The notes under the pieces: generated by a model
The model's database searches: none
What the model was told of the DNA's origin: nothing
Seen by the model: only the letters and a program-made list of their open reading frames with translations
NCBI GenBank assembly: GCA_002731275.1
Contig: PCBK01000105.1
Location: 1-63,790 of the forward strand
Origin: Deltaproteobacteria bacterium
Lineage (GTDB): Bacteria > Myxococcota_C > UBA6777
Length of the DNA stretch: 63,790 bases
Direction of reading: 5' to 3'
Part shown: piece after piece, positions 14,663 through 31,248 of the stretch
Layout: every line of letters starts with the position of its first letter
Numbering within the stretch: position 1 is the first letter of the stretch
Program-made: the position numbers and the translations under genes

Positions 14663-16270
14663 ATGACAACACAAAAACGAAAAAAGTCATGGGACAAACG
14701 TGGCGAAGGTCATGAAGGTCCATTTGACGCGATCGTCATTGGGTCTGGAATGGGTGGGATGACCACAGCGGCCCTGCTCGCGAAACTTAACAAACGCGTC
14801 CTTGTCCTCGAACAACATTATGTCCCTGGCGGCTTTACACATATGTTCCGCCGTAAACAGTATACCTGGGATGTTGGCGTCCATGCCGTTGGTGAGGTCA
14901 CGGAGCACAGCCTCACAGGGCGTATCCTCTCGTACCTATCAGATGGTGAGCTGGAATGGGCCTCGTTGGGCTCTGTCTATGATGAGTTCTATTTTCCAGA
15001 TGAGTTTCGCATCGACTTTCCAGATAACCCCCAACAATTTCGCCAAAACTTGATCGATGCCTTCCCCGAAGAGGAAGAAGCGATCCTCGCATATTTAGAT
15101 ATGATACGCGAGATATCCGGTGGGATGAGAGGCTACTACCTCGCACGTACGACAGGCGGTATGACTGGAAAGGTCGCGGACATGTTTATGGCGCGACGTG
15201 CGCAACGCTACTTTGAGCGTCCAACGATCGAAGTCGTCGAAGCCCTCACGGACAACCCAAAGCTCCGCTCGATCCTCACAGCACAATGGGGATACTACGG
15301 CTCTCCTCCAAGTCGCTCTTGTGTCGCGATCCAGGCGCTTGTCAACAAACACTTCATGTGGGGAGGGTATTACCCTGTTGGAGGCTCCAAGCGCATCGCA
15401 GAGACCCTTCTAAAAACCGTCGCAGACGCTGGAGGATGGACACGTATCTCCACCGACGTCCAATCCATCCTCATCGAAAAAGGAAAAGCTGTCGGGGTCA
15501 CGCTCGCAGATGGGAGCGAGATCAGGGCCAAACACATCATCAGCGCAGCGGGGATCTCCTCCACCATCCAACGCCTGCTCCCAGCCGAACAACGAGAAAA
15601 AACATGGGCCAAAAAGATCACCTCCTTGCAACCTGCCCCAGCCCACATCTGTTTGTACATCGGCTTCAAAGGAGATATCACACAGGCAGGCGCCAGCGCC
15701 GCCAACAAGTGGTTCTATAGCACCTGGGATATGGAGCGCTCCTATTGGCACATCAAGCCCGAAGGTGACGTCCCAACAGCTCCTTGCCTGTACTGCAGCT
15801 TCCCTTCTCTCAAAGATCCCGAACACGATCCTGGCGAAGAGGTTTTACACACAGGAGAGATCGTCACGTTTGTTCCGTGGGAGACCTTCGCCCCTTGGCG
15901 GGATTCCAGATGGAAAAGAAGGGACGAAGCATATGATGCCTTCAAGAAGCGCATGGAGGAGGCGCTGCTCAAGCAATTCCTCCAACACATGCCCGCACTG
16001 GAAGATATGATCGAATATGTGGAGCTCTCCACTCCCCTCTCGACGGATCACTTCTGTCGACCTGTCCACGGCTCGATTTACGGTTTGGAGCCCACACCAG
16101 AGCGATTCAAGAACCCCTGGCTACGAGCCAAATCCCCGATCCCCGGCCTCTATTTCTCAGGCAGCGAAGTCGCCTCTGTCGGCGTGATCGGTGCGATGAT
16201 GGGCGGCGTTCTCGCCGCGACCTCCGTCGCACCGACCAAAATGATGAGCCTCCTTCGCAAAATGGGCTGA
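14663..16270 (+). CDS. FAD/NAD(P)-dependent oxidoreductase, phytoene desaturase/retinol saturase type
   Basis: 535 residues, typical of the CrtI/RetSat family that desaturates or saturates polyenes and related lipids. The dinucleotide-binding motif IGSGMGGMTTAALLAKL with VLVLEQHYVPGG sits at residues ~25-60. YYPVGGSKRIAETLLKTV (~235-255) is the conserved GGS segment, HIISAAGISSTIQRLLP the second FAD contact, and the C-terminal GLYFSGSEVASVGVIGAMMGGVLAA the FAD-binding end motif. No membrane helix is obvious, and the enzyme would associate with membranes peripherally. It has its own promoter at 14604-14632. Substrate cannot be read; no geranylgeranyl or phytoene synthase gene is in the window, so carotenoid synthesis is not supported by context. 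Confidence 0.85.
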   Translation: MTTQKRKKSWDKRGEGHEGPFDAIVIGSGMGGMTTAALLAKLNKRVLVLEQHYVPGGFTHMFRRKQYTWDVGVHAVGEVTEHSLTGRILSYLSDGELEWASLGSVYDEFYFPDEFRIDFPDNPQQFRQNLIDAFPEEEEAILAYLDMIREISGGMRGYYLARTTGGMTGKVADMFMARRAQRYFERPTIEVVEALTDNPKLRSILTAQWGYYGSPPSRSCVAIQALVNKHFMWGGYYPVGGSKRIAETLLKTVADAGGWTRISTDVQSILIEKGKAVGVTLADGSEIRAKHIISAAGISSTIQRLLPAEQREKTWAKKITSLQPAPAHICLYIGFKGDITQAGASAANKWFYSTWDMERSYWHIKPEGDVPTAPCLYCSFPSLKDPEHDPGEEVLHTGEIVTFVPWETFAPWRDSRWKRRDEAYDAFKKRMEEALLKQFLQHMPALEDMIEYVELSTPLSTDHFCRPVHGSIYGLEPTPERFKNPWLRAKSPIPGLYFSGSEVASVGVIGAMMGGVLAATSVAPTKMMSLLRKMG

Positions 16271-22549: not shown

Positions 22550-23449
22550 TTGAGCAAAATAGGCATCGTCTCGTGTGACACTCTTCTTGGCGTCTTCGCA
22601 GTTGGTCCCTCCGCTCCTCACTACACAAAAGACGACATTCATCTCGTCCGCCATCTGATCTCAAGAGGACACGATGTATCTCCTCTCCTCTGGGGTGCGC
22701 CGATGGAAGAATGCGAACGTTACGATATGCTGCTGGTCCGCTCCACCTGGGATTACTTCGAACGTAGAGATGAATTTCTACAATGGCTACATCAACTAGA
22801 TGCCTCAAAGAGCAAAGTGCAAAATCCTACAGGCACGATGCTGTGGAACATTGACAAGCACTATCTACGCGACTTTGCGACGCAAGGGATCCCCGTTATT
22901 CCGACCATTTACATTGAGAGAGATGACCCCCAACCCCTTCACGAACATCTCGCGACAGTGGACTGGGACGAGTTCGTGATCAAACCAACCATCTCCGGCG
23001 GTAGTTATCTCACCTCACGTGTCCAACGCGATGCACTGACCTCCTTCGAAGAAACATTCCAAACATACCGAGCCGAACACGCGTGGATGCTTCAGCCATT
23101 CATGCAGGAGATCGTCGAGCAAGGTGAGTGGACCCTCGTCTACTTTGGCGGAGAATATGCACATACAATACTCAAAACACCGAAAGATGGAGACTACCGC
23201 GTACAAGAAGAGTTTGGTGGTAGCGTTCATTTTACCGAGCCCCCGAAGCATCTACGTGAGCAGGTTGACAAGGTAGTCGATACCATCCCCTACCCTTGGA
23301 CATACGCTCGCATAGACGGTTGCATGGTGAATGAGACCTTCACCCTCATCGAATGTGAATTGATCGAACCTGAATTATTTCTTCGCGCATCACCAACCTC
23401 AGTGGAACAATTCACGAGGGTGATTGAACAACATATCCACGACGAATAG
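22550..23449 (+). CDS. ATP-grasp ligase (DcsG/RimK-like)
   Basis: 299 residues; TTG start behind AAAGGAG. The pre-ATP-grasp region has RYDMLLVRSTWDYFERRDEFLQWL, then NPTGTMLWNIDKHYLRDFATQGIPVIPT, the arrangement seen in the family that contains the D-cycloserine ring-forming ligase DcsG. ATP-grasp motifs follow: EFVIKPTISGGSYLT (ATP Lys and Gly-rich loop), WMLQPFMQEIVEQGEWTLVYFGGEYAH, and the Mg-binding segment LIECELIEPELF. Such enzymes activate a carboxylate as acyl-phosphate for attack by an amine. It is the first gene of a three-gene operon that also holds a PGM1-like peptide ligase nine bases downstream; together they suggest a small-peptide or modified amino acid product. Confidence 0.85.
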   Translation: MSKIGIVSCDTLLGVFAVGPSAPHYTKDDIHLVRHLISRGHDVSPLLWGAPMEECERYDMLLVRSTWDYFERRDEFLQWLHQLDASKSKVQNPTGTMLWNIDKHYLRDFATQGIPVIPTIYIERDDPQPLHEHLATVDWDEFVIKPTISGGSYLTSRVQRDALTSFEETFQTYRAEHAWMLQPFMQEIVEQGEWTLVYFGGEYAHTILKTPKDGDYRVQEEFGGSVHFTEPPKHLREQVDKVVDTIPYPWTYARIDGCMVNETFTLIECELIEPELFLRASPTSVEQFTRVIEQHIHDE

Positions 23450-23458
23450 AGGTCTGTC

Positions 23459-25051
23459 ATGTTCCCCAACCCAGAAGCTATGCCTTGGCTTACCCACGTC
23501 CCTGGTTCACCAGAAGAGCTCGCTGCATTTCAACGTTTACAAGACTCCATCGTCCCTATGTTCCAAGAGATCTTCCCCAATCCTCAGCTCCCTCGAACAG
23601 TCGTCACAATCCCCAGCCTCTCCCTCAACGCCGAAGAGTTGGCGAAAATTACAGGTGTCCACCACTACGAAGAGCGCTTGCTGTGTCTCTTATTGCTCCT
23701 GCAAATGCCACGGACTCACGTGATCTATCTGACCAGTCAGCCGATCCAGCCTTCTATTATCAACTACTACCTACACTTACTCCCTGGTGTACCAAGTCAC
23801 CACGCTCGCAACAGACTGACCCTGCTCAGTTGCCATGACGCCTCTCCCAAGCCGCTCACACAAAAGATCCTCGAACGCCCACGTCTGCTCGCCAAACTCA
23901 AGAAGATGACCCTGAACGAGCCCAACGTCCACGTCGCGTGTTTTAACACCACACCGCTCGAAAGAACGCTGTGTGTTGAGCTACAAGCACCACTATTCGG
24001 TAGCGATCCGGCCCTCTGCCATCTCGGTGACAAGAGCCACGGTCGCGAGCTCTTTCGCAACGCAGGGATCGACATCGCAGACGGTTTTGAGCACCTGAGA
24101 GATGAAAAGGATATTGTTGGCGCGCTCGCAGACTTGCGCAAACGAAACCCCAACCTGCGCAAAGCCGTCGTCAAGCTCAACGAAGGCTTCTCTGGTGAGG
24201 GTAACGCAACGTTCAAATACGACGGCGCACCAAAAGAGGGCTTGGAAGCCTGGATCCAAGACCAGATCCCCACAAGGCTCAACTTCGAAGCCCCTGTGGA
24301 GACTTGGGACAGATACAAGAAAAAATTCGAGGATATGCAAGGCATCGTCGAAGCATGGCTTGAAGGCGATATCAAATGCTCTCCCTCCGTCCAATGCCGT
24401 ATCGAACCACACAACCTACAAAAACCCGTCGTGGTCTCCACCCACGATCAACTCCTCGGTGGCCCTTCAGGGCAGGTGTTTTTGGGGTGCACCTTCCCGG
24501 CTCATGAGGACTACAGGCTCGACGTCCAAGACGCAGGAGAGCGCATCGGCGATCAGCTCAAGCAGCGCGGCGTGATCGGACGATTTGCGGCGGACTTCAT
24601 CTCCGTCAAAGAAGAAGATCGATGGAAACACTACGCGATCGAGATCAACCTGCGCAAAGGTGGGACGACATTACCCTTCCTGATGCTCGAATTTTTGACA
24701 AACGGCCAATACAACGCACAGACCGGGCTCTATCACATCCCTACAGGACAACCTCGATTTTACTACGCCTCGGACAACCTCCAGAATGATCGCTACCAAG
24801 GACTCGCACCTGACGACTTGATGGATATCCTTGTGTATAACGAGCTCTACTTCAACAGCGCAAAACAAGAAGGTGTGGTCTTTCACCTGATGGGAGCGCT
24901 CTCGGAGTTTGGTAAGCTTGGGCTGGTGTGCATTGGTGACAATTATGAAACAGCCACACAACTCTACAAAGACGCTGTTGCAGCGCTCGACAGAGAGGCG
25001 ACCTCTTACGACAAAACGGACTCCCCTCTCGACCCTTTGCCTGAAAAATGA
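23459..25051 (+). CDS. PGM1-related peptide ligase (ATP-grasp with pre-ATP-grasp domain)
   Basis: 530 residues, close to the normal length of PGM1-related proteins, named after the pheganomycin peptide ligase that joins peptides to unusual N-terminal amino acids. The N-half shows VVTIPSLSLNAEELAKITGVHHYEERLLCLLLLL, THVIYLTSQPIQPSIINYYLHLLPGVP and LTLLSCHDASPKPLTQKILERPRL; the ATP-grasp half has KAVVKLNEGFSGEGNATF, GIVEAWLEGD and YAIEINLRKGGTTLPFLML (Mg ligands and C-terminal loop). Widespread relatives are cytoplasmic with unknown products. It lies between the DcsG-like gene and a HEAT-like gene in one operon that ends with a hairpin terminator at 25817-25843. Confidence 0.88.
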   Translation: MFPNPEAMPWLTHVPGSPEELAAFQRLQDSIVPMFQEIFPNPQLPRTVVTIPSLSLNAEELAKITGVHHYEERLLCLLLLLQMPRTHVIYLTSQPIQPSIINYYLHLLPGVPSHHARNRLTLLSCHDASPKPLTQKILERPRLLAKLKKMTLNEPNVHVACFNTTPLERTLCVELQAPLFGSDPALCHLGDKSHGRELFRNAGIDIADGFEHLRDEKDIVGALADLRKRNPNLRKAVVKLNEGFSGEGNATFKYDGAPKEGLEAWIQDQIPTRLNFEAPVETWDRYKKKFEDMQGIVEAWLEGDIKCSPSVQCRIEPHNLQKPVVVSTHDQLLGGPSGQVFLGCTFPAHEDYRLDVQDAGERIGDQLKQRGVIGRFAADFISVKEEDRWKHYAIEINLRKGGTTLPFLMLEFLTNGQYNAQTGLYHIPTGQPRFYYASDNLQNDRYQGLAPDDLMDILVYNELYFNSAKQEGVVFHLMGALSEFGKLGLVCIGDNYETATQLYKDAVAALDREATSYDKTDSPLDPLPEK

Positions 25052-25117: not shown

Positions 25118-25741
25118 ATGATGTCCGAAGCCAGACTCCTAGCACAATGTGAATCACTGGATTGGCAGTCTCTCCTTCGCGTCTTTGCGCAATTTATGCG
25201 AGACGTGCCAGAGCAGCTCGATCTGCCCGCCAAAGCCATCCGCAACAAAGCCCGCGCCGGTGAATTGCCAGAAGACGTCATCCCCCTACTGACGACGAGT
25301 TTGATGACCACCAAAAACACAACTGTGATCGTCGAGCTCGCCAAAGCGCTCGCTGCATTTGGTCGCAAAGCGCAAGTCGCAGCCCCCATCCTCGCAGACA
25401 AACTACGTGCGATGGTCGTCTCCGACGATGCCGACTTTTGGGCTTTCGATGGCTCCTTGTACGCCATCGCCTACCTCGGCGGTGAACACGCAGAGACATA
25501 CCTCAAAGAGCTCGAAGAAGAGCAAGAGCGTATGCCTCCTGTCTTACGTTCCGAAGACCTCTACCAAGGCACCATCCCTTTCGAAGACCGCGAAGGGCTC
25601 TTTTACGACACACTTGAACGTGTTCGTGGGATCCTTGAGAGTGAAGATCCAGGTGTATGGAGACAGCGTCGTACAGATCTTGAGACCACACAAGCCGCAC
25701 CAAGTAAAGCGCTCCCCGCCTGGCTCGCGAGTGTCAGCTAA
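25118..25741 (+). CDS. Helical-repeat (HEAT-like) protein of the ATP-grasp operon
   Basis: 207 residues; start ATG at 25118 behind GAGGAGA (an in-frame start at 25085 has no such site). The protein is all-helical and shows HEAT-like pairs (LPEDVIPLLTTSLMTTKNTTVIVELAKALAAFGRKAQVAAPILADKL and DGSLYAIAYLGGEHAETYLKELEEE). No catalytic motif, no signal peptide. As the last gene of the operon, 66 bases after the PGM1-like ligase, it may be a scaffold or substrate-presenting partner; that is an inference from position only. Confidence 0.7.
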   Translation: MMSEARLLAQCESLDWQSLLRVFAQFMRDVPEQLDLPAKAIRNKARAGELPEDVIPLLTTSLMTTKNTTVIVELAKALAAFGRKAQVAAPILADKLRAMVVSDDADFWAFDGSLYAIAYLGGEHAETYLKELEEEQERMPPVLRSEDLYQGTIPFEDREGLFYDTLERVRGILESEDPGVWRQRRTDLETTQAAPSKALPAWLASVS

Positions 25742-25885: not shown

Positions 25886-26581
25886 TTACAATCTCTTCTC
25901 GCCAATCATCAACGCACCTGCGACATCGTCCCGCAACAGATTCTTCTCACCAGTCATCCCTTCAGCCACAACCTTTTGGTACCCCTTCTCCACCCATTTT
26001 CCACAGTACACTTCTCCCTCGACCGGTTGCGTTTGCTCGACGATCAACCCTTCCATCCTCTGTGTACCCATATTGGACTTGCCGACCCACTCCTGCAGTC
26101 TCGTGAGCTCACCAATGCTCCCACGCCAAAGAGGCTGGCTTGGTGTGAGCCCCACACGCCGACAACGCTCCTGCATCTCTTCAAGTGGAAGGGGAACCCC
26201 ATCCACACGATTCAAACCGTAACAGATAAAAAGATCAGGCAAGCTCGTGTATTCGACGAATAGCCTGTGCCAACACCATTCACCATACAGAGTCATGCCA
26301 GGCGTAAGGAGCGCGCGAAGAGCGTCCATTCGCTGACTCATATAGAGATCAAGCGCTCGTTCCAATTCCCCTCCAAGTGCACCGTGCCAGGGAGGCCGAA
26401 AAGACCACTCCAGCCGACGTCGTCCAGTCCTCCCAACCGCGACAGCGATCCCATCGACCTTTTCGAGAACCCAACAGTCCGTCGTCAACAAACGCTGTTG
26501 ATCCTCTAAAGAGAGCAAAAGATCGTCCTCTCCCATCTGACTCCCTGAAAAATGAGCGATACGTTGGTACAGTGGAATCAT
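25886..26581 (-). CDS. ATP-dependent RNA ligase family protein
   Basis: 231 residues. All nucleotidyltransferase motifs are readable: motif I EKVDG (residue ~41, Lys forms the lysyl-AMP), motif III TLYGEWCWHRLF, a middle FICYGL, motif IV MEGLIVEQ and motif V GKWVEKGYQK. Lack of OB or zinc domains and the WCWHRLFVEYTSLPDLF context favour the RNA ligase branch over DNA ligases or capping enzymes. It should seal 3'-OH/5'-P RNA ends. The ATG (26579-26581) overlaps the TGA of the upstream kinase fusion by 4 bases (ATGA), with GAGGAGGGGAG as ribosome-binding site, so the two proteins are made together. It converges on the ATP-grasp operon. Confidence 0.9.
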   Translation of the reverse strand: MIPLYQRIAHFSGSQMGEDDLLLSLEDQQRLLTTDCWVLEKVDGIAVAVGRTGRRRLEWSFRPPWHGALGGELERALDLYMSQRMDALRALLTPGMTLYGEWCWHRLFVEYTSLPDLFICYGLNRVDGVPLPLEEMQERCRRVGLTPSQPLWRGSIGELTRLQEWVGKSNMGTQRMEGLIVEQTQPVEGEVYCGKWVEKGYQKVVAEGMTGEKNLLRDDVAGALMIGEKRL

Positions 26582-28299
26582 ATTCTCCCCTCCTCCTCGC
26601 ATAGTATGTCGACAATCTTCTGGACATCTCGATAAAGTGTATCAGCATTTAGAGCGATATGATGCGCTCCCTCAGCCGGACGTAGAGGATGTATCGCCCT
26701 CTGTCTATCGCGCTCATCACGTTCACGCAGTAAATCAAGAGCGTCTTCAAGTGAAAGTCCTGCGCGAGCTGCGAGTGAAGCAGCACGTTCATCAAGAGGA
26801 GCATCCACAAAGATCTTGAACTCCGCATCAGGGTAGAGGTGCGTTCCGACGTCTCGACCTTCTACGACAGCATGTCCATCAATAGACGCATGGATACACT
26901 CCGACACAAACGCGCGGATCGAAGGCAACGCAGCCCACTGTCCAACAGATGATTCGACGACCGCAGCCCCTAAACTCTTTCTCAAACTCCACTCTCCAAA
27001 CTGGACACCACCTCCAGGCAACAGCCGCAAAGTCACACAAGAGAGCGCCTCAATCAGGCCTCGCGCGTCCTCTTCGTGTGGACGCAAATCGTGACAGTGT
27101 GCGTACAATGCGATCCCCCGATACATCGCTCCTGTGTCGAAATAAGAGATGCCCAAAGCAGACGCAAGCAGACCCGCAAATGGAGACTTCAAGCTCGCAG
27201 CCGTTCCGTCGATCGCGATCACCCCTCCAAAAGAAGAGTTCTTCAGTGAAGGCCAGGCAAAATCAGGCAAAGGAACGTCTTCTAACGGCCCCAACACACG
27301 CTTGAGCGCATGCTGTAGCTCACGACCAACAGCCACAGCACGTCGTGTAACAAATGAATGAGTTGAGTCGGTATGCCCACGCCGACCGAGATGGACATCG
27401 AGCAGATCCAAGAGGCCGACGAGCGCACCCATAAGCCCGACAAAGGGCAACAAGAACACATAACGTTGATGCCAACGCATGTCAGGTGTGTGTGCTGCGT
27501 ACGCGTTCAATAATCTCAACTCGTCAAACCACCCCACAGGGGTTCGGGTGACCATCATTGCTAAATCAAGTGCAGGATCGCCCAGACCAGCATATTCAAA
27601 GTCGACGATGGAGAGCTCTTCACCGCTCATCAAGTTATGCCAACGCAGATCTCCATGACAAAAAGCTTCCACACGGGGCCATCGACCATCCCATTCATCA
27701 AGACGCTCTTCTAGCACATCGAGAGCACGCTCACACAGCGCGAATGTCTCCGTATCGAGTACACCAGCTTCTTCCAATTCGTCGAGTTGATCTCCAATCA
27801 CACGTAACATTGACGATGGTCTGGAAGGCATCTTCAGTCGAGGACCATCGGGAAAAGGTGTTTGGTGGAGTGTTGCGAGCAGTCGGCCCAGCGACTCCAT
27901 CCCAGCGTCGTCAAGAGGTTCCTCGACAGCGTCTGCATCAAGCGCCTCCAAAAAGAGACCTTCTCCAACCGAAAGGTCGAGCTTCCCTATGAGGGTGAGG
28001 TCTTTTTTGTCGATCGCCTCTTCGAGTAAAAGATGGGGCTGAAGTGCACCAAGGACATTGGGTGACGGAAGGTCTCGCGCTGCATCCAGCGCTTGCAACT
28101 CAGCCCATACGTCATGTCTTTCATGTGCGCGGAGCTTGAGAAAACACGCTTGCTCGCGAAAGACTCCCCGAAAGAGATGATTTCGGCACCCAATGCTCGA
28201 CGGAAGCTGCGAGAATGTGTTGACAGAAGCTGGCGAGAGGAGCGACATCGCAGCGTTGATATATTCGCTGATCTGTTGTGTGGATACAGTCGTGTGCAT
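26578..28299 (-). CDS. Fusion of APH-type phosphotransferase and cytidylate kinase-like domain
   Basis: 573 residues. Residues ~40-330 are an aminoglycoside/choline kinase-like phosphotransferase: HGDLRWHNLM (Brenner motif) and IVDFEYAGLGDPALDLAMM. Residues ~365-573 are like CMP kinase: IAIDGTAASLKS (degenerate P-loop; the usual GxGKS reads ASLKS), ISYFDTGAMYRGIALYA, VVEGRDVGTHLYPDAEFKIFVDA and RDERDRQRAIHPLRPA. I know of no canonical enzyme with this pair. The ligase gene overlaps its 3' end by 4 bases, so a functional link to RNA ends (5'-phosphorylation or nucleotide supply) is likely. The ATG at 28299 is preferred because AAGGG lies 9 bases before it; an ATG at 28308 abuts that sequence. 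Confidence 0.85.
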   Translation of the reverse strand: MHTTVSTQQISEYINAAMSLLSPASVNTFSQLPSSIGCRNHLFRGVFREQACFLKLRAHERHDVWAELQALDAARDLPSPNVLGALQPHLLLEEAIDKKDLTLIGKLDLSVGEGLFLEALDADAVEEPLDDAGMESLGRLLATLHQTPFPDGPRLKMPSRPSSMLRVIGDQLDELEEAGVLDTETFALCERALDVLEERLDEWDGRWPRVEAFCHGDLRWHNLMSGEELSIVDFEYAGLGDPALDLAMMVTRTPVGWFDELRLLNAYAAHTPDMRWHQRYVFLLPFVGLMGALVGLLDLLDVHLGRRGHTDSTHSFVTRRAVAVGRELQHALKRVLGPLEDVPLPDFAWPSLKNSSFGGVIAIDGTAASLKSPFAGLLASALGISYFDTGAMYRGIALYAHCHDLRPHEEDARGLIEALSCVTLRLLPGGGVQFGEWSLRKSLGAAVVESSVGQWAALPSIRAFVSECIHASIDGHAVVEGRDVGTHLYPDAEFKIFVDAPLDERAASLAARAGLSLEDALDLLRERDERDRQRAIHPLRPAEGAHHIALNADTLYRDVQKIVDILCEEEGRI

Positions 28300-28424
28300 A
28301 CCAAACATCCCTTCGTATAGAAGTCCAAAAAGAGTTGAAAGTCATCATTTACGGTGATGTAGGGTGGTGAGGCAAAAAAGAAAAGGGGGAATGGCGAAGG
28401 AGCGGGTGTGATGGAACAGAAGGA

Positions 28425-28820
28425 TCAGGTTCCCCAACGGCTGCTGCGGGGAGTGTAGTTGTAGCTGGAGTATCCGCCACGAGAGGGACGACGGGAGCGA
28501 ACTTCCTTGCGGATGTCCGAGACCACATCATCGAGAGAATCTGGACCTTCACCCAAAAACTCTTCGATCATTGCGGCTGCTTTTTCACCACGAACCCAAC
28601 CGCTTTCGAGCGCGAGCTTGAAGGTGTTTTTCACAGCGCGCTCTGCGTTTGCGAGACCACGTGAGCTGGAGACAAACTCATCTTTGAGTTCCTGACGGGC
28701 AGTACCGATCGCAGCTTCTGTCTCGGAGATGCTGAGAGTGTTTCCGCTCTGTGCACCAACTGCAAGATCAGCAAGTAAGTTTGTCGCGATCGCGTTGTCA
28801 CCTTTACCTTTGATATTCAT
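28425..28820 (-). CDS. Small hypothetical helical protein with Arg/Ser/Tyr-rich tail
   Basis: 131 residues, start ATG at 28820 behind AGGAG. The first ~100 residues are probably helical (LLADLAVGAQSGNTLSISETEAAIGTARQELKDEFVSSSRG, then AERAVKNTFKLALESGWVRGEKAAAMIEEFLGEG). The end is low-complexity: RSRRPSRGGYSSYNYTPRSSRWGT spans the last two dozen residues and could contact nucleic acid. A longer frame to 28934 lacks a ribosome-binding site. Not recognised; it is separated from the TetR and kinase-fusion genes by about 200 and 125 bases, so it may be a single-gene unit. Confidence 0.55.
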   Translation of the reverse strand: MNIKGKGDNAIATNLLADLAVGAQSGNTLSISETEAAIGTARQELKDEFVSSSRGLANAERAVKNTFKLALESGWVRGEKAAAMIEEFLGEGPDSLDDVVSDIRKEVRSRRPSRGGYSSYNYTPRSSRWGT

Positions 28821-30333: not shown

Positions 30334-30939
30334 GAACACTGCTCACATATTAGTTTTTGTAAAAGAATTGTAACAGAGATATTTTTTTTGATAGATTACA
30401 GCGCTGTAGCAACCTATCGACAGTCTCTCACTTGGACAGCAGTGTACATTGCATTGATTTGAGGAGAGAGATGATGCGCCAACCCCCTCACAGACAAGAT
30501 TTAAAGTCCCTCCTCATTTAATCTAACAGTTTTTCTCTCAATCGACCCAAACTTGAAACATTCACGACTAATCATTTTCAAAAAGATACATAAATTCAAA
30601 AAGATACCGCACCACCTTCAGTACTTTTTGTTTTGAGATCACAGAAAAAGATCATCAAAAGCTATACCACGTGATTTTTCACTCTTTTTGGCACCGTTTA
30701 CCCAAAATTTGAAAAATTGGACGCTTGAAAAGCGCAACAAACGAACCATTCGGGTATATCCTCAAAACTTCGACAGAAAACAAAAAACTTTTATTTTTCA
30801 AGCACAAAGAGCCTCCCCAAAAGCCAAGGCTGCGGTCCCTTCTCAAAAAAATGTTGCAATCTGCGAGGAGATGGTCCACAAATATACACGGAACCGCAAG
30901 AACCGATGGAGCAAAATTCAAAAAAACGAGGAGTTCATA
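30334..30939. other. AT-rich intergenic region upstream of HU, with palindrome and possible small frame
   Basis: 606 bases, AT-rich. It contains the perfect 12-base palindrome TACAGCGCTGTA (30397-30408), itself inside GATAG...CTATC, a likely operator. At 30471-30521 a 16-codon frame (begins MMRQPPHRQ) follows a very strong GAGGAGAGAG site and ends with TAA. From 30688 an open frame runs in phase into HU but has only a TTG start and no ribosome-binding site, so I read it as long leader rather than coding. Confidence 0.5.
30471..30521 (+). CDS. Possible 16-residue small peptide or leader
   Basis: ATG ATG CGC at 30471 directly follows GAGGAGAGAG, one of the strongest ribosome-binding sites in the window (spacing short for the first ATG, better for the second). 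The frame ends at TAA 30519-30521. The peptide is too short to judge by composition and could be a leader, a micropeptide, or chance. Confidence 0.25.
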   Translation: MMRQPPHRQDLKSLLI

Positions 30940-31248
30940 ATGAACAAAAAAGAACTGATTGCAGCCGTTGCAGAAACAACTGGTCTTACCCAAAAGCAAG
31001 TTGGTGTCATCACCAACGCTATCTTTGCAGAACTTACCCAACAACTCAGCCAGCGCGAGCGCATGTTGATTCGCGGTTTCGGTACATTTGATGTTGCCGA
31101 TCGTGCGCCCCGTACAATTGTTCACCCCGGTGACGGAAAGAAGATGAACTTGCCAGCACGCACAGTTCCAGTTTTCCGACCAAGCTCCGAGTTGAAAGAG
31201 CTCGTTGCGGCCAAGAAGAAAAAGAAAAAGAAAAAGAAGAAAAAGTAA
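30940..31248 (+). CDS. HU/IHF-type DNA-binding protein with polylysine tail
   Basis: 102 residues; ATG at 30940 behind GAGGAG. Residues 1-90 are a standard HU fold: MNKKELIAAVAETTGLTQKQV, MLIRGFGTFDV with the GFG turn, and the DNA-contacting arm RTIVHPGDGKKMNLPARTVPVFRPS. The C-terminus adds an uninterrupted run of 11 Lys (LVAAKK... encoded by mixed AAG/AAA), which should bind DNA backbone strongly and compact chromatin, as seen in HU homologues with Lys-rich tails of some Actinobacteria and myxobacteria. It is a single-gene unit with a long AT-rich leader and a strong terminator, consistent with high expression of a nucleoid protein. Confidence 0.95.
   Translation: MNKKELIAAVAETTGLTQKQVGVITNAIFAELTQQLSQRERMLIRGFGTFDVADRAPRTIVHPGDGKKMNLPARTVPVFRPSSELKELVAAKKKKKKKKKKK

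Follow-up and report, generated by a model that had tools for sequence, protein, structure and literature searches.

ATP-dependent RNA ligases are usually partnered, for the healing of ends, by P-loop polynucleotide kinases, and T4 Pnkp-Rnl is built on this kinase plus ligase logic. The APH phosphotransferases are among the largest families of small-molecule kinases. The bacterial Pnkp1-Rnl-Hen1 system also joins a kinase to a ligase (PMC4411300). In the HD-Pnk operons, a multidomain kinase stands beside a small ligase, and in Deinococcus radiodurans (DRB0098-DRB0100) DRB0098 phosphorylates 5'-OH ends, and the ligase DRB0100 self-adenylates at K40 but did not seal either DNA or RNA in vitro, its authors being unable to exclude capping (PMC1997131). 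ArkI, which has a protein-kinase-like fold, phosphorylates the 2'-OH of tRNA (PMC9095486).

Here, we describe a unit of four genes on a 63,790-nucleotide stretch of DNA from a Deltaproteobacteria bacterium (contig PCBK01000105.1, assembly GCA_002731275.1), the whole of which is called the window below. Like the HD-Pnk operons, with whose ligases its own small ligase shares a wider family, this unit sets the ligase next to a multidomain kinase-like protein, but this protein is a fusion of an APH phosphotransferase with a CMP-kinase-like (CMPK-like) domain and not of HD with AAA_33; the unit also lacks the HD phosphoesterase and the macro-domain-like protein and adds a small helical and a HEAT-like protein. 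The kinase plus ligase logic of T4 Pnkp-Rnl and Pnkp1-Rnl-Hen1 is retained, but the T4-type P-loop polynucleotide kinase, the phosphatase and the Hen1 methyltransferase are absent. No paper on a CMP kinase or an APH protein coupled to an RNA ligase was found among the open-access papers searched, and the novelty, provisionally, lies in the use of different kinases, and of two new accessory proteins, for RNA processing of the kinase-plus-ligase kind. We propose, with a probability of roughly one half, that the four genes of the locus form a unit for processing and sealing RNA ends, consisting of an APH kinase, a CMPK-derived binder, a ligase and two accessory proteins.

Organization of the unit in the window

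The unit comprises the genes for a small helical protein, the APH and CMPK-like fusion, an RNA_ligase-family protein and a HEAT-like protein (Table 1). The APH domain is N-terminal in the fusion and the CMPK-like domain is C-terminal. The ATG at 28299 appears to be a better start of the fusion than the one at 28308 because the sequence GAAGGG is located 9 nt upstream of it. The original prediction had the 3' end of the fusion overlapping the ligase start through ATGA, and this was confirmed in the sequence. It had further read the locus as a pair of genes; the coupling of fusion and ligase stood, but the small and HEAT-like genes had been overlooked and the unit contains four genes.

Table 1. 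Genes and sequence features of the unit, in window coordinates.
Feature	Position	Strand	Details
Small all-helical protein, first gene of the unit	28425..28820	-	131 aa, ATG 28820; Arg/Ser/Tyr-rich C-terminal tail
APH + CMP-kinase-like fusion	26578..28299 (alternative in-frame ATG 28308)	-	573 aa (576 aa from 28308); Pfam
Degenerate Walker A of the CMPK-like domain, DGTAASLKSP, residues 367-376	27181..27210	-	Alignment
ATGA stop/start overlap of fusion and ligase	26578..26581	-	4 nt
RNA_ligase-family nucleotidyltransferase, adenylation domain only	25886..26581	-	231 aa; Pfam, motifs
HEAT-like repeat protein, convergent with the ligase	25121..25741	+	~206 aa; homologues beside other units

Conservation and distribution of the unit

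The fusion was found in five genomes from two distantly related phyla, namely 2/5 genomes of the window's phylum (G000, which is the window's genome, and G003, both of one family) and 3/195 genomes of a second phylum (G530, G566 and G567). All four genes were present at each fusion locus (5/5), and the check for a conserved neighbourhood suggested in the original prediction thus had a positive outcome in both phyla. The possibility that homologues of the fusion always occur without the ligase, which would speak against the pairing, is contradicted by the ligase found beside every fusion (5/5). In G003, the same four genes have the same layout as in the window and are 36-59% identical, with the small-gene homologue (59%) in the same place and the HEAT-like homologue (50%) beside the unit; small-gene and HEAT-like homologues adjoin the units of G530, G567 and G566 as well. 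The four fusion homologues are 29-36% identical, a value of 39% being also obtained for the one in G003, and pairwise identities across the five units range from 22 to 59%. Between the phyla, identity was 26-33% for the fusion, 31-39% for the ligase, 22-48% for the small protein and 30-38% for the HEAT-like protein. None of the four genes was found in the remaining 3/5 genomes of the window's phylum, one of which is 86% complete and another in ~930 contigs.

The junction between fusion and ligase is ATGA or GTGA at 5/5 loci, and the gap from the small gene to the fusion was 116, 38, 1, -8 and 6 nt across them. Three arrangements of the HEAT-like gene occur: downstream and convergent (G000 and G003), downstream in the same direction (G530), and upstream and divergent (G567 and G566). 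Because the overlap is kept at all five loci while the HEAT-like gene occupies three positions, the linkage goes beyond mere synteny. That the genes are neighbors without a joint function, linked by inheritance only, is therefore very improbable, even though the loci are only five and G000 and G003 belong to one family: the linkage holds across two phyla at 22-48% identity, the 4-nt overlap is conserved, the HEAT-like gene moves yet stays linked, and the presence of the unit in the window's phylum is all-or-none. Fusion and ligase thus form a real, translationally coupled unit.

The unit is rare but real. Among 386 broadly sampled genomes, the fusion was detected only in G000 and G003 and in none of the other 384, and it was found in 0/392, 0/279 and 0/276 genomes of three further phyla, where the matches were to the CMPK domain only, or there were none; because these phylum and diverse-genome searches score only few candidates per genome, absence in them is no proof. 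Searches of viral contigs for the fusion or ligase, and of plasmids for the fusion, gave no member of the unit and distant ligases only. The window ligase sequence alone found no relative in the genome contigs, and a two-member ligase alignment found there only what appears to be G003's own record (SBHC01000070.1). Apart from one amine-oxidase-like gene, which is close to the unit in both the window and G566, the loci had no flanking genes in common. This gene encodes an FAD protein at 14663-16270 (+) of the window and has a 50% identical homologue ~4 kb from the G566 unit (L096 716-2500), which is probably a coincidence.

The two halves of the fusion

The APH half is a member of Pfam APH (PF01636), which it matched with E=6.5e-17 and 62.5 bits against a cut-off of 23.2. 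Residues K58, E70, H218-G219-D220, N225 and D236 (numbering from the ATG at 28308) are invariant in 5/5 fusions, so the HGDxxxxN motif, the downstream Asp and the N-lobe Lys/Glu that mark the family are all present; from what is known of the APH fold, we take these N-lobe Lys/Glu, HGD, Asn and later Asp residues to be catalytic. The complete catalytic set is shared with APH/choline-kinase-like phosphotransferases, but the window protein differs from these in the fusion to a CMPK-like domain and the coupling to an RNA ligase. Its nearest solved relatives are choline/ethanolamine kinases (3dxq, E=3e-9; 4r77, E=1.6e-8) and antibiotic phosphotransferases, all of which act on small molecules. The AlphaFold model of the fusion, built from two sequences, had a pLDDT of 37 and the domain geometry was not drawn from it.

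The CMPK-like half matched Pfam Cytidylate_kin above the curated cut-off (E=1.5e-33) and missed the TIGR00017 equivalog cut-off (103.5 bits versus 135.55). The five fusions were compared with 43 canonical CMP kinase sequences drawn from the same searches. Leu replaces the Walker-A Gly (Gly373 position) in both G000 and G003, at a site where each canonical CMP kinase that covers it has Gly (42/42); in G566 the Lys is replaced by Ser, and G530 and G567 keep both residues. Thus, the Walker-A Gly or Lys was lost in 3/5 fusions and in two different ways, and the window sequence (GTAASLKS) departs from the GxxGxGK[ST] of an intact (d)CMP kinase. The degenerate P-loop had already been noted in the original prediction; it reads GTAASLKSP as stated and likewise GTSASLKSP in G003. 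Its origin by chance or sequencing error was ruled out by this second occurrence at 39% identity and by the Gly in all 42 canonical sequences.

The other side of the domain was found to be intact. The acceptor-pocket and lid residues equivalent to E. coli Y40, R41, R110, R131, R181, D182, D185 (D534 in the window fusion) and R188 are conserved in 5/5 fusions, and of these R41, R110, R131, D185 and R188 bind CMP and phosphates in the Yersinia/E. coli CMP kinase (PMC3603445). The D132 equivalent is kept in 4/5, being Val in G566 only, and the window protein has the entire pocket and lid set of a (d)CMP kinase (R41, R110, R131, D132, D185 and R188). At the Ser101 position, all five fusions have Ala or Gly and 37/43 canonical CMP kinases have Ser; Trp458 is present in 5/5 fusions, at a position that is Val in 28/43 canonical sequences. 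The likeness to (d)CMP kinase (cmk) therefore extends to the domain family, the acceptor pocket and the lid, and the differences are the broken Walker A (3/5), the altered Ser101 and Trp458 positions and the fusion to APH. The window's genome has a separate CMPK-domain gene.

The CMPK domains of the fusions group as a single clade (SH-aLRT 98); the simplest history is therefore one origin followed by two separate instances of damage to the ATP site. The alignments are best read as showing selection on the acceptor side and a donor side that can be dispensed with, so that in at least three lineages the domain would serve in binding and not as a standard kinase. This fits the earlier suggestion that one half of the fusion may bind and not phosphorylate. 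The ATP site of a CMP kinase has been lost repeatedly while the acceptor pocket next to it was retained, which makes this a clear example of an enzyme domain that is apparently becoming a binding module.

The same two halves could serve a small-molecule pathway, in which APH would phosphorylate a metabolite or drug, the CMPK-like half would bind or make a cytidine nucleotide, and the ligase-fold protein would transfer a nucleotide to the phosphorylated compound. The choline/ethanolamine kinases among the best solved APH relatives and the mostly kept cytidine pocket favor it. We nevertheless consider such a pathway unlikely, as the partner is an RNA_ligase-family protein at 5/5 loci, no transporter or other biosynthetic gene common to the five loci was found, and the loss of CMPK ATP-site residues in 3/5 fusions is a poor fit to the CDP-forming step that would be needed.

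The RNA ligase and its relatives

The ligase belongs to Pfam RNA_ligase (PF09414; E=2.3e-9, 38.1 bits against a cut-off of 27), and a member of this family lies beside the fusion at 5/5 loci. The ligases of the unit are bare adenylation domains of ~220-230 aa, in which the motifs K41xDG, G100-E101, E177-G178 and K195-W-V are invariant (5/5). The comparison with a DRB0100-type profile by hhalign gave 99.7% and E=1e-26; the window ligase lies on its own long branch among its relatives and is 24-27% identical to those within the same phylum. On these comparisons, the ligase of the unit is a divergent relative of the DRB0100-type ligases. HD-Pnk, an end-healing protein in which HD and kinase domains are fused, adjoins 7/26 of the ligase relatives compared, including the D. 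radiodurans DRB0100-DRB0098 pair, and 6/26 stand next to a DUF3696-annotated ATPase that is accompanied by a second, short protein.

The window's genome encodes four PF09414 ligases in all, the other three being a T4 Rnl2-like ligase beside HD-Pnk, one with a tRNA-binding domain and a lone one. At C127 12529-13104 (L033 106-2460), an HD + AAA_33 (HD-Pnk-like) gene lies directly upstream of the first, which has a T4_Rnl2_C domain, and the second (C3 244564-245085; L034 883-2388) is RNA_ligase fused to tRNA_bind. G003, like G000, has HD-Pnk next to another ligase, in G000 away from the unit.

The DUF3696 set was seen repeatedly as three genes, for the ATPase, a ~170-180 aa protein and an RNA ligase from the wider family to which the window ligase belongs. 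The set occurs at L072, L073 and L074 (G038, G183 and G116) and on plasmids of Aeromonas (L087 1957-4585), Azotobacter (L088 1853-4471) and Rhodococcus (L090 1990-4552). The ~170-180 aa protein has no Pfam match; by eye, its DTN and DRKF motifs make it resemble a PIN nuclease, and the set may be a cut-and-reseal system. No paper on DUF3696 together with an RNA ligase was found among the open-access papers searched.

Instead of repairing breaks, the unit might modify RNA, with APH acting on an internal or terminal hydroxyl, or with a modified or capped 5' end being built and the ligase-fold protein working as a nucleotidyltransferase. The 2'-OH kinase ArkI is a precedent (PMC9095486), the ligase is a bare adenylation domain, and the related DRB0100 showed no ligation in vitro with capping left possible (PMC1997131). 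Many ligase relatives, however, adjoin an enzyme that prepares ends for sealing, and we judge RNA modification to be quite improbable.

The small helical and HEAT-like proteins

The small protein was modelled by AlphaFold as five helices (pLDDT 75). Its fold had no PDB match at E<=0.001, and no Pfam, PADLOC or PHROG match was found. G567 carries a further short, basic ORF (L092 3666-4097 (-)), flanked by the small gene and the HEAT-like gene; it ends in SPYGA, much as the small protein ends in SPYGG. The HEAT_2 match of the HEAT-like protein was just under the curated cut-off, with E=9e-6 in G003. Membership of the unit in anti-phage defence was rejected, as no PADLOC match was found at E<=0.1.

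Proposed role in RNA end processing and sealing

In the four-gene unit for RNA end processing and sealing proposed here, the APH half would be a working phosphotransferase that phosphorylates RNA at a hydroxyl, in the simplest case at a 5'-OH end. It is proposed as the RNA-hydroxyl kinase because no other kinase domain is intact throughout the five fusions and because ArkI, likewise of a protein-kinase-like fold, provides a precedent. In its conserved acceptor pocket, the CMPK-like half would bind a nucleotide or the end of an RNA, and several lineages would have given up its standard use of ATP. After activating itself with AMP, the coupled ligase would join the phosphorylated end to a 3'-OH, and the helical and HEAT-like proteins might recruit or scaffold the RNA. 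As the genes run in the order small protein, fusion, ligase and the last two are strictly coupled, the product of the fusion would seem to be the substrate of the ligase. What we infer from the genes is that RNA is the substrate, that labor is divided in this way and what the two accessory proteins do.

The all-or-none presence of the unit in the window's phylum, the kept overlap, the intact active sites of APH and ligase in 5/5 and the kinship of the ligase with HD-Pnk-linked ligases argue for this reading. Against it stand the small number of loci, the small-molecule kinases as APH relatives, the HD-Pnk already present beside another ligase in G000 and G003, and the failure of the relative DRB0100 to seal in vitro (PMC1997131). 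The idea of a candidate RNA repair unit was thus borne out only in part, in the coupling of the kinase fusion to the ligase and in the kin of the latter; the likeness to T4 did not hold in full. No 3'-phosphatase, cyclic-phosphodiesterase or other 3'-end-healing domain was found by Pfam in the four genes, and because the unit has no 3'-phosphatase or cyclic-phosphodiesterase it is not a full T4-like set.

The unit may even, though tentatively and with the odds somewhat against it, represent a new class of RNA repair or end modification, in which APH instead of a P-loop kinase phosphorylates the ends, a CMPK-derived nucleotide-reader guides and the coupled ligase receives them. If true, a kinase of the protein-kinase-like APH fold would have independently taken the place usually filled by a P-loop kinase beside an RNA ligase, and the APH family would gain a new activity. 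The unit is small and well defined, and the question is therefore answerable with purified proteins.

Other observations in the window

Two adjacent ATP-grasp genes were noticed at 22550-25051 (+), one like the D-cycloserine synthetase DcsG (E=2.8e-39) and one like the glutamate ligase BesA (E=3.7e-39), both under the equivalog cut-offs; these are perhaps a cluster for peptide or amino-acid ligation. At 30688-31248 (+), the window encodes a protein that looks, by eye, like an HU-like DNA-binding protein and carries a terminal run of 11 lysines.
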